From assembly GCA_023512255.1 (NCBI GenBank), contig JAILZY010000111.1, positions 1-10,425 of the forward strand: a stretch of 10,425 nucleotides of DNA, in the 5' to 3' direction. Positions 1,426 through 7,604 of this stretch are shown piece by piece. The notes beneath the pieces are model-generated. The model had not been told where the DNA came from, did not search any database, and saw nothing but the letters and a program-made list of their open reading frames with translations. Within the stretch, counting starts at the first letter, position 1; each line of letters begins with the position of its first letter. The translations under genes and the position numbers were made by a program. The DNA is from a bacterium (GTDB lineage: Bacteria > SZUA-182 > DTGQ01).

Positions 1426-1884
1426 ATGCCAATACGGAAATTAAGAGAATTTTTGGATCAAAATAATATCAAGTATGTAACTATAACTCATTCGCCCGCC
1501 TACACTGCTCAGGAGATCGCGGCCTCAGCTCACATTCCGGGTCGGGAGATGGCCAAAACCGTAGTGGTGAAAATTGATGATACTATGGCCATGGTTGTTC
1601 TGCCTGCCAATGCCCAGATAAACCTCGATTTTCTAAAATGTATCACTGGAGCCCAAAGGGTTTCGCTCGCCAGTGAGGAGGAATTCAAAGATAAGTTCCC
1701 CGACTCTGAGATTGGGGCCATGCCGCCCTTTGGCAATCTGTATGGAATGCAAGTTTTTGTATCGGAGGCTTTGAGCCGAGAGAAAGAGATCGCCTTCAAT
1801 GCCGGCTCTCACTCAGAGTTGATCAAAATGTCGTATAAAGATTTCGAGCGCATCGTAAAGCCAAGGGTGATCGTAACGTCCTAA
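1426..1884 (+). CDS. YbaK/ProX-family aminoacyl-tRNA deacylase (trans-editing)
   Basis: This family hydrolyses mischarged tRNAs, for example Cys- or Ala-tRNA(Pro), and is related to the editing insert of prolyl-tRNA synthetase. The 152-residue length is normal for a stand-alone member. Visible motifs are HSPAYTAQEIAASAHIPG (residues 22-39) and the AKT segment with the conserved lysine at K44, followed by VVVKIDD. Next come VVLPANAQINL (57-67), GAMPPFG (97-103) and the closing FNAGSHSELIKM (124-135). The lysine corresponds by position to the essential lysine of YbaK (family knowledge, alignment by eye). The substrate tRNA cannot be read from the sequence. The start is well supported by AAGGAG at 1413-1418, 7 bases upstream. 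The stop codon lies inside a tandem duplication (1881-1928). The enzyme is expected to be cytoplasmic. Confidence 0.88.
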   Translation: MPIRKLREFLDQNNIKYVTITHSPAYTAQEIAASAHIPGREMAKTVVVKIDDTMAMVVLPANAQINLDFLKCITGAQRVSLASEEEFKDKFPDSEIGAMPPFGNLYGMQVFVSEALSREKEIAFNAGSHSELIKMSYKDFERIVKPRVIVTS

Positions 1885-2035: not shown

Positions 2036-5000
2036 ATGATCGCTAAGATCAGCCTTAGCCCATCCTGCCTAAGTAGGCCAAGGGGCATCCCTATTATCAT
2101 CATCCTTATCATTATTGCCCTCCATCTTATTACTATCCTGATGCTCCATCGGCCCGCTTTCTCAGCCTCGCTGGGATTCACAGCAACAGCATCATCGGCG
2201 ACCTCTCTCCTTGAGGCCGCGGCGGTAGCCGAGTCAACCCTCAGACAGCCTCTGAAAAATTGTCTAGAAGATAATTCAGGAAGCCTTGATATCGGAGGGC
2301 TCAAGGCCAAGGTGGGTGATGAGATTCTTATCCCGGTGAGGATACAGGCTGCACCAAGGGCCGTATCTTCCTTTGGCTTCGAAATTGTCTATGAGGCCAG
2401 GATCTTAGAATATACGGGTTTTAGTAGAGGAGAGCTAGCCGCCTCACTCAGCAATTTCGAGGTCTATCCCGTAAACAAGGGAAGAGTCCGCGCCGCCGGT
2501 ATCGCTATCGGCAGCGGCATCCGCCGGGGGGCATCTGGCTATCTGCTTTGGTTAAAGTTTACGGTTCGAGCAGGCCTTGAGGGTGAGTGTTACCCGCTGT
2601 GGTTTGAAGGTCTGGTAGATGATGTAGCTTCTTTCTCTACCAGTCGGGGATGTCTATGCATTACGATTGCCAAGATGTGGTATAAAGATGCAGACGGTGA
2701 TGGATATGGGACCAAGAGCATGGTCAAGATCCAATCTGATCAGCCGCAAGGGTATGTATCCAATGCCGATGATTGCGATGACAGCCAGGCCAGAATCAAC
2801 CCAGCCACGGTATGGTATCAAGATAAGGATGGCGATGGATATGGGGATCAGGCGGTGACCAAAATCCAGTGCAGCCAGCCAGAGGGCTACACCCTGAAAG
2901 CTCCGGACAACTGCCCGCGGGTGTTTAATCCTGACCAGAAAAACAGTGATCAGGATTTTTGGGGAGATGCTTGCGACAATTGTCCTTTTGTGGCTAATGA
3001 GGATCAGGCGGATCAAGACCAGGACGGGATAGGGGATGTCTGCGACCCTTGCCCAAATTACTACAACCCGGATCAGGATGATGTCATCCCTCTGGTTCCA
3101 GAAAAAGCATCCTTGCCCAAGCTAACCCTAATTTGTGGTCAAGCAGTGAAGCTCTCCCCTCCATCGGCTATCGATCCTTGCACTGGCAAAAAGATAGTGG
3201 CTACCTGCGACGATGCAGACAAAAATCTAGCCTCCTGGGGACCGGGCACCTATACCATCACCTGGAGCTACAGGAGAGGGGCAGAGCAGATCCTGACCCA
3301 GCAGCAGACGATCGTGGTGGTCGATACCGAGCCGCCAGTTCCCAAACAGGACAAACTCCCTCCGATCATTATCGAGTGTGAGATCAACCCTTCTGCCCAG
3401 CCTGGTGAAAAAAAATGGAGCTGTGAACAAAAATCTATTGATTATCCAAAGGCTATTGACCTATGCAGCGGAAGGGAAATAGTGGCCAAACCTCAGACCC
3501 CCTTGATCTTTGAAAACCCAGGCACATATCAGGTAATTTGGACCTATACGGATGATGCCGGCAATACCTCCAGGCAGACGCAAGAGGTCTTGGTGCAGCT
3601 TGTTACCCGGGTTGGGCCAGGCCAGGCCTTCGAAAGATTGACAGACGGGATTGAGGCCGCAAGCGCCGCATCTGCTATGACAAGTGCCATAACTGCTATG
3701 AGAGAAGAAGATATATTGAGTAAGATCAAGGTAGCCAGGGGTGAATACCGGCTTGAGCCAAAAATCTATATTAAAAGTAAAGTAACCCTTGAAGGTGGAT
3801 GGGATCCAAACTTCACTGCCAGGGATCCTAAGACCAATAAAACCTTGCTATCTGGAAGCTCGATAATTTTTATTGATACTAATGCCGCTAGGCTAGATGG
3901 ATTTATTATCGAAAACTCAACTGCCGACCATGACAAAAATATCTCTCTACCCGATATTCTTTCCCCTCTCCTTCCGCCATCCCTGATAAGGTTTAGAGAG
4001 ACTGTCTCAGGCAATATTGCCTCATGTGGCGGTGGGATATACTGCCGAAATTCCTCACCGATGATCTCAAACTGCGAAATACGCAATAACCTAGCCTATG
4101 AGGCTGGCGGAGGTATCTTTTGCCTCAACTCCTCACCGACCATCATTAACTGCACTATTTCAAAAAACAGATCAGACTTTTTCGGCGGCGGAATATGCTG
4201 CCTCAATTCCTCACCGATCATTCAAAACTGCACCATCTCAGAAAATACCGCCAAGTATGGTAGCGGAATATCCTGCGATAGCTCATCCTCACCGACCATT
4301 ATCAACTGCACCATCTGGGGAAATACGGCCTCTGGCAACGGCAGCGGACTATTTATCAGGGACTCAAATCTCAAAGCCGTAAACTGCACCCTATGGGGAA
4401 ATAAGAGCGCAAGCCTAGGGGGCGGCATCTATTCTAAACAGGCTACCGTCACGGTCATAAACAGCATCCTGTGGAATGATACCCCGGATGAGATCTGGTT
4501 CGATAGCGGATCAAACTGCCAGATAACCTATTGCGCTATTCAAGGAGGGTTTGGCGATCCGGCCACTACTCATAATATTCAAACCGATCCCTTATTCAAG
4601 GACCCCAACGGGTACAATTTTCATCTTTTCGCCAGCCCGCAGCAGCGCTCTTCCTGCATTGATGCCGGCACAGACACTGAGGCGCCTGAGCAAGACAAGG
4701 ATGGCCAGTCAAGACCCTATGATGGAGACTGCGACGGGCAGTCCAAGGTTGACCTTGGTGCCTACGAATACTGGGATGATCAGCCGCCGGTGCCTGCTCT
4801 CGATCCCCTGCCTGTGGCCAAAGGAGAGTGCCAGGTGGTCTTGACTCCGCCAACAGCCTTCGATGACTGCGCCGGATCAATTATAGCCAAAACCGATGAC
4901 CCGCTTGTCTACAGCAGTCAAGGCACTTTTTCCGTAACCTGGATTTATGACGATGGGCATGGAAATACGAGCCAGCAAAAGCAAACAGTTTTGGTCCAAG

Positions 5001-6220
5001 ATACCACTCCTCCTACGCCTGATCAGAATCCTTTGCCGCAGCTTTGCTTTGAGTGCGGGTATCCAATCGAGCTCCCCCCCCCAACAGCCACTGACCGCTG
5101 TAGCGGCTCCATAGTGGCCACTACCAGCGACCCTCTGCCCTCAACCGTAGGCACCACTACTTTGACCTGGCGCTACCAGGATCAATATGGCAATATCTCA
5201 TATCAGACCCAAAAGATTAAGGTAATTGATACCCAAAAGCCAATCCCTGACCTTGCCCAACTGCCCGAGATCGTGGCTGAAAATAGCATCACCCTCACCC
5301 CCCCGACAGCCACTGACCGCTGTCGGGGAAAAATCACCGCCTCAGCCGATCGGCTCACCTATACGGAAAGAGGGAGTCATACGGTCATCTGGACCTATGA
5401 TGATTCAAGTGGCAATATAGTCCAGCAGGAGCAGAAGGTAACGATCAGACGGGTGCTATTTGCAAATCCCAGCGGACAGGGAGGATATTTGAATCTTCAG
5501 CAGGCTATCAACAGTGCAGACTGCGAATATACCATCAGGCTGGCTGAAGGCTCTTATGCTGATGTTCATCTTACCATTCAGAAGGGAATCAGACTAGAGG
5601 GGGGGTGGAGCTTTGACTTTACCCAAAGGGATCCGGGCCGCTACCTAACCATCCTGGTCGGTGCGGCCAATGGCGGTCCAGTGATAAGTTTCGTCGACTG
5701 CAATCAGGCAATGATCGACGGGGTAACCATCACCCATCTTGGCAGTCTGAGACGCCCATTGACAGACTGTGGGATCTACTGCCGCGGGGCTTCGCCCACC
5801 ATATCATGGTGCATCATCTCAGGAAACACCGCCTCTTATGGTGCTGGAATCTATTGTCAAAATTCCCATCCCCTAATTAGCCGCTGCCTAATCAAAGATA
5901 ATACTGCCCATGTGGCTGGAGGAGGAATCTACTGGACATCGGACTCGCGGCCGACCATCCTAGGCTGCCGCTTTTATCATAATACTGGGCAGGGAAAGCC
6001 CAGCCATATTTGTTTGGGAAGTGAGGTAGACCCTTGTGTTTCAAGCACCTCCTGTAATCTTGAGTTGCTAGACGAGCAAAGCTTGAGGCAAATTCAGCTT
6101 CTCATCTCAGACAGTCTAAGCGGTCGGGGGAAAGCCGCCTATCGGCTATTTAACCAGCCGTGCGGGTTAAATTATACTCTTGGTGATGATGATCCTGTAG
6201 TCATCTGGCTTCAGCCGTAA
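2036..6220 (+). CDS. giant mosaic exported protein: cohesin, MopE/TSP3, HYR x2, beta-helix, HYR x3, beta-helix
   Basis: The N-terminus has a basic stretch (K4, R14, R16) and a hydrophobic core (about 18-37). A possible signal peptidase site follows near residue 44 or after A52 (ATA); otherwise the segment could stay as an anchor. A cohesin-like domain follows (about 83-210: VGDEILIPVRIQ, SFGFEIVYE, GASGYLLWLKF). Next are MopE/thrombospondin-3-like Ca2+ motifs (about 214-349: DADGDGYG, DCDD, DKDGDGYG, DNCP, DQDQDGIGDVCD). Two HYR-like domains come next (about 352-521), then a right-handed beta-helix (about 525-912) with six clear 25-27-residue rungs, GGGIYC-type starts at 665-795. It closes with VDLGAYEY, as in choice-of-anchor Q proteins. 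Three more HYR domains (about 913-1137) and a second beta-helix (about 1138-1340) follow. The tail has no PEP-CTERM, LPXTG or GlyGly-CTERM signal. The probable role is extracellular or cell-surface binding or adhesion (inference). No catalytic residues were recognised and no dockerin is visible. AGGA at 2017-2020 is 15 bases from the ATG, so the start is only moderately supported. Confidence 0.85.
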   Translation: MIAKISLSPSCLSRPRGIPIIIILIIIALHLITILMLHRPAFSASLGFTATASSATSLLEAAAVAESTLRQPLKNCLEDNSGSLDIGGLKAKVGDEILIPVRIQAAPRAVSSFGFEIVYEARILEYTGFSRGELAASLSNFEVYPVNKGRVRAAGIAIGSGIRRGASGYLLWLKFTVRAGLEGECYPLWFEGLVDDVASFSTSRGCLCITIAKMWYKDADGDGYGTKSMVKIQSDQPQGYVSNADDCDDSQARINPATVWYQDKDGDGYGDQAVTKIQCSQPEGYTLKAPDNCPRVFNPDQKNSDQDFWGDACDNCPFVANEDQADQDQDGIGDVCDPCPNYYNPDQDDVIPLVPEKASLPKLTLICGQAVKLSPPSAIDPCTGKKIVATCDDADKNLASWGPGTYTITWSYRRGAEQILTQQQTIVVVDTEPPVPKQDKLPPIIIECEINPSAQPGEKKWSCEQKSIDYPKAIDLCSGREIVAKPQTPLIFENPGTYQVIWTYTDDAGNTSRQTQEVLVQLVTRVGPGQAFERLTDGIEAASAASAMTSAITAMREEDILSKIKVARGEYRLEPKIYIKSKVTLEGGWDPNFTARDPKTNKTLLSGSSIIFIDTNAARLDGFIIENSTADHDKNISLPDILSPLLPPSLIRFRETVSGNIASCGGGIYCRNSSPMISNCEIRNNLAYEAGGGIFCLNSSPTIINCTISKNRSDFFGGGICCLNSSPIIQNCTISENTAKYGSGISCDSSSSPTIINCTIWGNTASGNGSGLFIRDSNLKAVNCTLWGNKSASLGGGIYSKQATVTVINSILWNDTPDEIWFDSGSNCQITYCAIQGGFGDPATTHNIQTDPLFKDPNGYNFHLFASPQQRSSCIDAGTDTEAPEQDKDGQSRPYDGDCDGQSKVDLGAYEYWDDQPPVPALDPLPVAKGECQVVLTPPTAFDDCAGSIIAKTDDPLVYSSQGTFSVTWIYDDGHGNTSQQKQTVLVQDTTPPTPDQNPLPQLCFECGYPIELPPPTATDRCSGSIVATTSDPLPSTVGTTTLTWRYQDQYGNISYQTQKIKVIDTQKPIPDLAQLPEIVAENSITLTPPTATDRCRGKITASADRLTYTERGSHTVIWTYDDSSGNIVQQEQKVTIRRVLFANPSGQGGYLNLQQAINSADCEYTIRLAEGSYADVHLTIQKGIRLEGGWSFDFTQRDPGRYLTILVGAANGGPVISFVDCNQAMIDGVTITHLGSLRRPLTDCGIYCRGASPTISWCIISGNTASYGAGIYCQNSHPLISRCLIKDNTAHVAGGGIYWTSDSRPTILGCRFYHNTGQGKPSHICLGSEVDPCVSSTSCNLELLDEQSLRQIQLLISDSLSGRGKAAYRLFNQPCGLNYTLGDDDPVVIWLQP
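5074..5323 (+). repeat. in-frame repeated segment within HYR4/HYR5 with C9 and C7 tracts
   Basis: The 18-base string ACAGCCACTGACCGCTGT occurs at 5084-5101 and 5306-5323, exactly 222 bases (74 codons) apart, in equivalent positions of two adjacent HYR domains. Each copy is preceded by a cytosine run: nine C at 5074-5082 and seven C at 5298-5304. Identity at DNA level points to a recent domain duplication or gene conversion between HYR4 and HYR5. Confidence 0.8.
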
Positions 6221-6576: not shown

Positions 6577-6860
6577 CACTTGCTTCCTCCTCATAATATT
6601 ACAGAATAACAGAATAATATAATATATAATATATTTAATATAATATATAATATATTACAGAATTTATATTACAGAATTAATATATTACAGAATAACATAA
6701 TATATTACAGACTAGAATATTACAGAGACTAAGAATATTACAGACTAGCAGAATAACATTATAATAGAACAACGTCATAGCAATAGTCAGTATATTCAGT
6801 ATATAATAAGAGAAGGCTGAAGGCAAGAGTTCAGATTGATATAAGGGAGGGAGCTATTTT
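6577..6860. other. divergent intergenic spacer, 284 bases, strongly AT-rich
   Basis: Besides the ATTACAG copies, it holds TATAAT hexamers at 6760-6765 and 6802-6807 on the plus strand and a 9-base duplication, CAGTATAT(T/A), at 6788-6805. In such AT-rich DNA TATAAT is weak evidence, and neither hexamer has a good -35 box. The GDPD ribosome binding site ends the region. I see no RNA gene or ORF. Confidence 0.5.
6598..6743. repeat. seven direct copies of ATTACAG in an AT-rich divergent spacer
   Basis: ATTACAG occurs at 6598, 6654, 6668, 6684, 6704, 6719 and 6737, all in the same orientation and most within a longer AATATTACAGA context. Spacings are 56, 14, 16, 20, 15 and 18 bases, so they are neither strict tandem units nor fixed to the helical turn. 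The array lies between the divergent cupin and GDPD genes, and their promoters must be within or beside it. It may be a cluster of regulator sites or simply a slippage-expanded region. Confidence 0.75.
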
Positions 6861-7566: not shown

Positions 7567-7604
7567 TTTGGAAGGAACCCTTTTTCAAAAGGGTTCCTTC
7601 CAAA
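7567..7604. terminator. perfect 18-base-pair hairpin between convergent genes
   Basis: TTTGGAAGGAACCCTTTT (7567-7584) and its exact complement (7587-7604) flank a two-base TC; in RNA a few T:A pairs would open to make the loop. It lies 17 bases after the GDPD stop and about 120 bases from the convergent kinase stop. Seven T at 7622-7628 come 17 bases after the stem, too far for a textbook terminator. AAAAAG (7602-7607) can also pair with CTTTTT (7621-7626), giving a second hairpin directly before the T-run. It is probably a transcription terminator or 3'-end processing barrier, or a member of a dispersed repeat family. Confidence 0.7.

Follow-up and report, generated by a model that had tools for sequence, protein, structure and literature searches.

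What does a cohesin do in a secreted protein built otherwise mainly of HYR domains and beta-helices, in a genome whose dockerins sit on peptidases, propellers and a carbonic anhydrase? The question is raised by an open reading frame (ORF) at 2036-6220 (+) of a 10,425-nucleotide stretch (the window) from a bacterium of the lineage SZUA-182 (DTGQ01; assembly GCA_023512255.1, contig JAILZY010000111.1). The window is one entire contig (C125) of a 172-contig assembly, the source genome (G000), and we call its relatives G001-G004. The ORF encodes a secreted multi-domain protein of 1394 amino acids (aa). Since a true cohesin is accompanied in this genome by about 20 matching secreted dockerin proteins, the protein is probably part of a surface-assembly system that does not serve cellulose. 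On the sequence data we lean towards a reading in which it is secreted and serves a non-cellulosomal cohesin-dockerin network as a Ca2+-dependent docking partner.

A cohesin and a genus-level set of dockerins

By profile and by predicted fold, the first domain is a genuine cohesin. PF00963 matched residues 84-181 (E=1.4e-8; 35.4 bits, cut-off 24.1), and a profile built from 31 cohesins of two genomes retrieved cohesins of solved structure (4ums, 1.1e-9; the archaeal 2xdh, 6.5e-6). AlphaFold modelled the domain with high confidence (predicted local distance difference test (pLDDT) score = 95.4), and the top Foldseek matches of this model were all cohesins (5nrm, 5nrk, 4ums and archaeal 2xdh; E 5.1e-10). 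Alignment to 5nrm with VIA-align gave Z 17.6 and a root-mean-square deviation (rmsd) of 1.9 over 127 aligned residues. The initial annotation, made from the letters alone, had proposed a cohesin here, and the Pfam profile, the solved-structure matches and the predicted fold bear it out.

The window cohesin retains 31 of the 33 positions conserved among the dockerin-linked cohesins of the genome. In the cohesin tree, which separates stand-alone domains from mostly dockerin-adjacent ones, it falls into the second group (branch 100/100). The residues that follow it correspond to the start of the dockerin in related tandem proteins and to MopE-like Ca2+ motifs in the window protein, so that these motifs occupy the dockerin's position. 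The simplest account of these comparisons would be that a cassette-type cohesin was relocated N-terminally without its dockerin.

A same-genus genome encodes an orthologue that matches along its full length (65% identity, 1394 aa) and has all domains in identical order; its cohesin is 61% identical, near the level of the whole protein. The locus is partly syntenic, with a YbaK-type gene upstream there too (L036:501-965). Because the orthologue shares both the domain order and the upstream gene, we set aside an assembly chimera. Beyond this orthologue, no full-length match was found in the 60-genome panel, and the domain order is therefore genus-restricted as far as tested.

The initial annotation had suggested searching the genome for dockerins, and about 20 matching ones of a single genus-level type were found. 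The source genome contains 21 cohesin matches in 17 ORFs, an additional weak cohesin in C15 that scores under the curated cut-off, and 19 Pfam dockerins (20 by a lineage profile of the type ending in PSCLD). Both domains occur together in 13 ORFs, C15 counted, with the cohesin just before the dockerin and the pair usually C-terminal. Five ORFs have a cohesin only (the window protein, in which PF00404 gave no dockerin, and those on C134, C122, C89 and C153) and six a dockerin only, one of which (C133:15925) carries a different dockerin. The common signature is GDLNGDG.ITPADAL..F.CYL...C..C.DV..DG.VTPADALC.F.KYL..PSCLD, which keeps the two canonical Ca2+ loops; 9 of the 19 dockerins end exactly in SCLD and a stop. 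Dockerins from unrelated proteins are 55-81% identical to the first alignment row. The PSCLD-type profile found 33 matches in G001; three other genomes of the order had 2-4 each, nearly all much weaker, and the remaining genomes of the class had none. One G002 match scores like the genus dockerins but lies in a 77-aa frame with an internal stop. As judged from these profiles and alignments, the dockerin type is genus-level and near-uniform.

The N-terminal partners of these dockerins are diverse: C1 and C25 peptidases, PQQ propellers, VWA and DUF1566 domains, a terpene-cyclase-like toroid, RHS repeats, beta-helices and a gamma-carbonic anhydrase. A scan of the 19 Pfam-dockerin ORFs of G000 and of nine C-terminal parts from G001 revealed neither a glycoside hydrolase nor a lyase or esterase. 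CHB_HEX_C_1 and Fn3_assoc matches on two dockerin proteins are accessory domains.

Three dockerin loci are described here in their own right. At L143:1061-1978 (-) (G000:C65), a secreted Cam-type gamma-carbonic anhydrase is fused to a C-terminal PSCLD dockerin. It matches PDB 3ou9 (1.5e-60) and NCBIfam carb_anhyd (1e-77, below that model's cut-off), and it has the motifs (VVLHGLE, LAHQAQVHGP) that surround the usual Zn histidines. The same fusion occurs in G001 (L212, partly masked), and a literature search for a dockerin with a gamma-carbonic anhydrase found no paper. At L129:10814-16497 (G000:C122), the gene for a dockerin-ending beta-helix/HYR protein is closely followed by one whose product has two cohesins and six HYR domains, and the neighbours are possibly a plug-and-socket pair. 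Finally, L128:3056-10492 (-) (G000:C81) encodes a 2479-aa RHS-repeat protein with an internal MopE-cohesin-dockerin cassette ahead of the RHS part.

Domain architecture and proposed function

The features of the window protein, with the upstream gene as context, are as follows.

1426..1884, +, upstream YbaK/tRNA-edit-type gene (PF04073, 5.3e-27), outside the system
2036..2164, +, signal peptide, about residues 1-43, read by eye: basic start, hydrophobic core and PAFSA/S-like cleavage site, then a short linker
2261..2665, +, cohesin, residues 76-210 (PF00963 and predicted fold)
2666..2899, +, two MopE-like Ca2+ motifs, residues 211-288 (phmmer alignment to MopE stretches of L126, L128, L136 and L141, from the same genome)
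2900..3085, +, thrombospondin type 3 (TSP3) repeats, residues 289-350 (COMP 3fby)
3089..3601, +, HYR1 and HYR2, diverged HYR-like domains, residues 352-522 (HYR_4C weak; align with HYR3-5)
3602..3955, +, lead-in of helix 1, residues 523-640, with LEGGWDPNFTARDP at 585-598 (aligns with many family lead-ins)
3998..4555, +, coils of beta-helix 1, about 26 residues per coil (PF13229; DNA repeat family D3, spacing 78 nt)
4637..4771, +, choice-of-anchor Q segment, residues 868-912, ending in VDLGAYEY (NF041518)
4775..5449, +, HYR3, HYR4 and HYR5, residues 914-1138 (HYR_4C)
5450..5989, +, lead-in and beta-helix 2, residues 1139-1318, with LEGGWSFDFTQRDP at 1187-1200 (PF13229)
5954..6217, +, conserved C-terminal tail, residues about 1307-1394, with YRxFxxPCG (also C-terminal in G004:C137 and G002:C131)

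Profile searches confirmed the domain content that had been read from the translation, namely a cohesin-like domain, MopE/TSP3 motifs, five HYR-like domains and two beta-helices. HYR_4C (PF23237; cut-off 27) scored 73.2 bits over the entire protein. Scanned singly, HYR3 (28.4 bits, E=1.9e-6) and HYR4 (31.2 bits, E=2.6e-7) exceed the cut-off and HYR5 (26.9 bits, E=5.6e-6) lies 0.1 bit below it; HYR1 (E=0.011) and HYR2 (E=0.0014) are weak and under the cut-off alone, yet alignable with HYR3-5. The TSP3 repeats are homologous to solved Ca2+ repeats (COMP 3fby, E=2.4e-26; thrombospondin-2, 4.4e-21), with Pfam TSP_3 (PF02412) at 24.7 bits, just below its cut-off of 25. Each helix half scanned alone matched Beta_helix PF13229 (3.4e-17, 63.0 bits and 4.2e-11, 43.2 bits; cut-off 25.9), and the choice-of-anchor Q model NF041518 scored 33.9 bits against a cut-off of 25. 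The signal of the orthologue is similar and ends in KPALSA. The proposed order, HYR x2, helix, HYR x3, helix, is likewise correct and identical in the orthologue, and both lead-in sequences lie where they had been placed; the tail after the second helix had been overlooked. The protein is a mosaic, as the initial annotation put it, but "giant" overstates its size, as the same genome encodes ORFs of 1646-2479 aa. Most of what a contig scan based on the MopE pattern brought up were unrelated MopE/HYR proteins from Bacteroidota and Deltaproteobacteria.

We propose that the product of the ORF is modular, secreted and non-catalytic and depends on Ca2+. The cohesin at its N-terminus would be the socket into which the near-uniform dockerin at the end of many other secreted proteins of the genus fits, with binding presumably dependent on Ca2+. 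The TSP3/MopE motifs and HYR domains may form a Ca2+-stiffened stalk and the two beta-helices the displayed part, at a probable extracellular location, so that the protein would act as a single-socket acceptor in the network. The ligand of the helices could, as a guess, be a glycan or the surface of another cell. This proposal builds on what was directly observed: the domain content, the fold of the cohesin, the dockerins in the same genome and the orthologue. The earlier suggestion of a Ca2+-dependent scaffold or adhesin is borne out as regards secretion and the richness in Ca2+-type motifs, but no evidence for an adhesin was found.

Several observations weigh against the docking role. The window gene is not adjacent to any dockerin gene, and its contig has no dockerin match. 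An approximately unbiased (AU) test forcing the window and orthologue cohesins in with the stand-alone ones was not rejected (p=0.32), and the exact placement of the window cohesin is therefore soft. The AlphaFold model of residues 346-1394, computed from a two-sequence alignment, was too poor for use (pLDDT 42). Pfam and NCBIfam searches at E<=1 gave no recognised C-terminal anchor or barrel (LPXTG, PEP-CTERM, autotransporter), the conserved tail being a module without a name. Finally, in 13 ORFs the dockerin has a cohesin of its own next to it, so that the sockets of these proteins may be taken up internally or by one another.

This last observation leads to an alternative that we regard as doubtful, in which cohesin-dockerin pairs engage mainly inside single tandem proteins or from one such protein to the next, serving as a tail for polymerisation or sorting, and the chains are capped by the window protein. 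The mostly C-terminal position of the cassette in these ORFs agrees with such a tail, and its attachment to unrelated N-terminal parts is what a sorting tag would be expected to show. However, the two canonical Ca2+ loops of the dockerin suggest binding and not cleavage, and no partner enzyme such as a sortase turned up, although none was sought. Slightly less probable still is that the cohesin is a relic of a cohesin-dockerin cassette that no longer binds dockerins, the protein being a secreted beta-helix/HYR adhesin or glycan binder of the ordinary kind. A lone cohesin without a dockerin, MopE motifs in the dockerin's place and the predominance of beta-helix and HYR domains in the protein would all fit a relic, but the conserved positions are kept as in cassette cohesins and the domain is about as similar between orthologues as the rest of the protein. 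A cellulosome-type scaffoldin for plant-polymer degradation is highly improbable and was set aside: the cohesin model has its best structural matches in type I cohesins of cellulosomes, but the protein has one cohesin only, no carbohydrate-binding module (CBM) in Pfam or NCBIfam scans and no glycoside hydrolase (GH), lyase or esterase among the dockerin proteins scanned.

History of the helices and the surrounding sequence

The similar lead-ins of the two helices had suggested to the initial annotation that the gene grew through duplication of an HYR-helix block. Our comparisons do not support this and make it improbable. The two helices are homologous (36.6% identity over 164 aa, 91 bits), and among whole helices the best partner of helix 2 is helix 1 (91.7), with C38 close behind (85.5). 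The helix 1 coils, however, score 171-189 bits against other proteins and about 91 against helix 2. The lead-in pattern LEGGW..F..RDP is family-wide: LEGGW with F..RD also occurs in G000:C45, G001:C45 and G003:C374, and in a looser form in a Myxococcales protein (YGGYDTTFANRD). The lead-in of helix 1 is nearest to that of helix 2 (50.4), then to G001:C45 (46.6), but the helix 2 lead-in is closer to the unrelated G000:C45 (54.3 bits) than to its helix 1 counterpart (48.5). In the lead-in tree the two are joined at 59/85 and lie about 3.5 changes per site apart, where orthologues are separated by 0.44 and 0.75; this join is weak but not rejected. The HYR copies are unequal in number (two and three) and cannot be paired, the tree being without resolution. 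From the lead-in and helix comparisons we conclude that the similarity is real homology without a privileged link, the helices being no closer to each other than to other proteins. Internal duplication does occur in the lineage, since the starts of the two helices of G002:C131 are 61% identical; in the window protein, the sequences are compatible with an ancient HYR-helix duplication without demonstrating it.

The VDLGAYEY motif is indeed internal, as had been noted, but its mid-protein place is not unusual, as several members of the class are alike (internal DIGAYEY in L157, L158, L162 and L151) and helix-Ig-helix-tail layouts occur elsewhere in the lineage. G002:C131 (L225, a 650-aa frame) has a helix, DMGAYEY, a PKD-like spacer, a second helix and a window-type tail, and in G004:C137 a helix plus the same tail closes a peptidase C10 protein. 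The tail profile matched G004:C137, one of its members, at 5.8e-42 and the non-member G002:C131 at 4.9e-19. Because both share the tail, the combination of helix and tail behaves like a C-terminal unit that is mobile. This mobility lends limited support, in altered form, to the earlier idea that a second protein was appended to a complete first one.

Outside the ORF, Rfam gave no matches in the window, and several repeats are recorded here. An exact 22-nt direct duplicate with a 1-base spacer lies at 1289-1333 between the flavin-reductase-like and YbaK-like genes, and a 24-nt tandem pair (CTAAGTACCAG.TG.TGCAGCATT) at 1881-1928 begins at the end of the YbaK-like gene. The AT-rich intergenic region at 6590-6780, between divergently transcribed cupin and GDPD genes, contains several copies of ATATTACAGAAT. 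Between the convergent GDPD and hybrid histidine kinase genes, where both end, a perfect inverted repeat at 7567-7604 (arms of 18 bp, 2 nt apart) is possibly a bidirectional terminator.

Relation to known systems and significance

Non-cellulosomal cohesin-dockerin proteins have been described in anaerobic methanotrophic (ANME) archaea, which, like the present genome, hold dozens of cohesins and dockerins and are non-cellulolytic; there, HYR domains are enriched and extracellular assembly or cell contact was proposed, with the role stated as unclear (PMC5244752, PMC9012536). In that archaeal case dockerins commonly sit on ABC-transporter binding proteins, and there are S-layer/dockerin proteins too, whereas the partners here are peptidases, gamma-carbonic anhydrase, propellers and beta-helices that share one near-uniform C-terminal dockerin. 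The cellulosome-like system of Candidatus Stygibacter (Cloacimonadota) is similar in belonging to an uncultured bacterial lineage and in placing C-terminal dockerins on peptidases, including C25; in contrast, its 3755-aa scaffoldin combines multiple cohesins with CBMs and its GH18 and GH57 enzymes bear dockerins, and neither feature was found here (PMC8542988).

At the level of single proteins, the non-cellulosomal cohesin 2xdh of Archaeoglobus fulgidus matches the fold of the window cohesin (Z 16.7, rmsd 2.7, 123 aligned), but it is a single archaeal module, unlike the multi-domain window protein, and the comparison covers the cohesin only. HycP of Clostridium cellulolyticum is likewise a large secreted protein with many HYR domains from a cohesin-using bacterium, but it lacks a cohesin and carries 23 HYR domains and a CBM3; its knockout revealed no role in cell adhesion to cellulose (PMC3723904), which cautions against taking HYR domains as proof of adhesion. 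Helix 1 with its DLGAYEY end resembles choice-of-anchor Q/right-handed beta-helix surface proteins, fitting NF041518 and PF13229, except that the Q segment is internal, as in several class members.

What appears new with respect to these sets is a single near-uniform C-terminal dockerin on many unrelated non-carbohydrate proteins, usually beside a cohesin. We tentatively suggest that the genus-wide C-terminal PSCLD cassette could serve as a general plug-and-socket tag by which secreted proteins of unrelated kinds (peptidases, gamma-carbonic anhydrase, beta-propellers, VWA and RHS proteins) are joined in a Ca2+-dependent extracellular network unrelated to polysaccharide breakdown, in which the window protein would be a cohesin-only beta-helix end-piece. 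The role of cohesins and dockerins outside cellulosomes is stated to be unknown (PMC5244752, PMC9012536). With 21 cohesins and about 20 closely similar dockerins, carried by secreted proteins that are non-cellulolytic, this genome offers a compact, defined set for testing such a non-cellulosomal role, and the window protein, with one socket and no plug, is its simplest bait.

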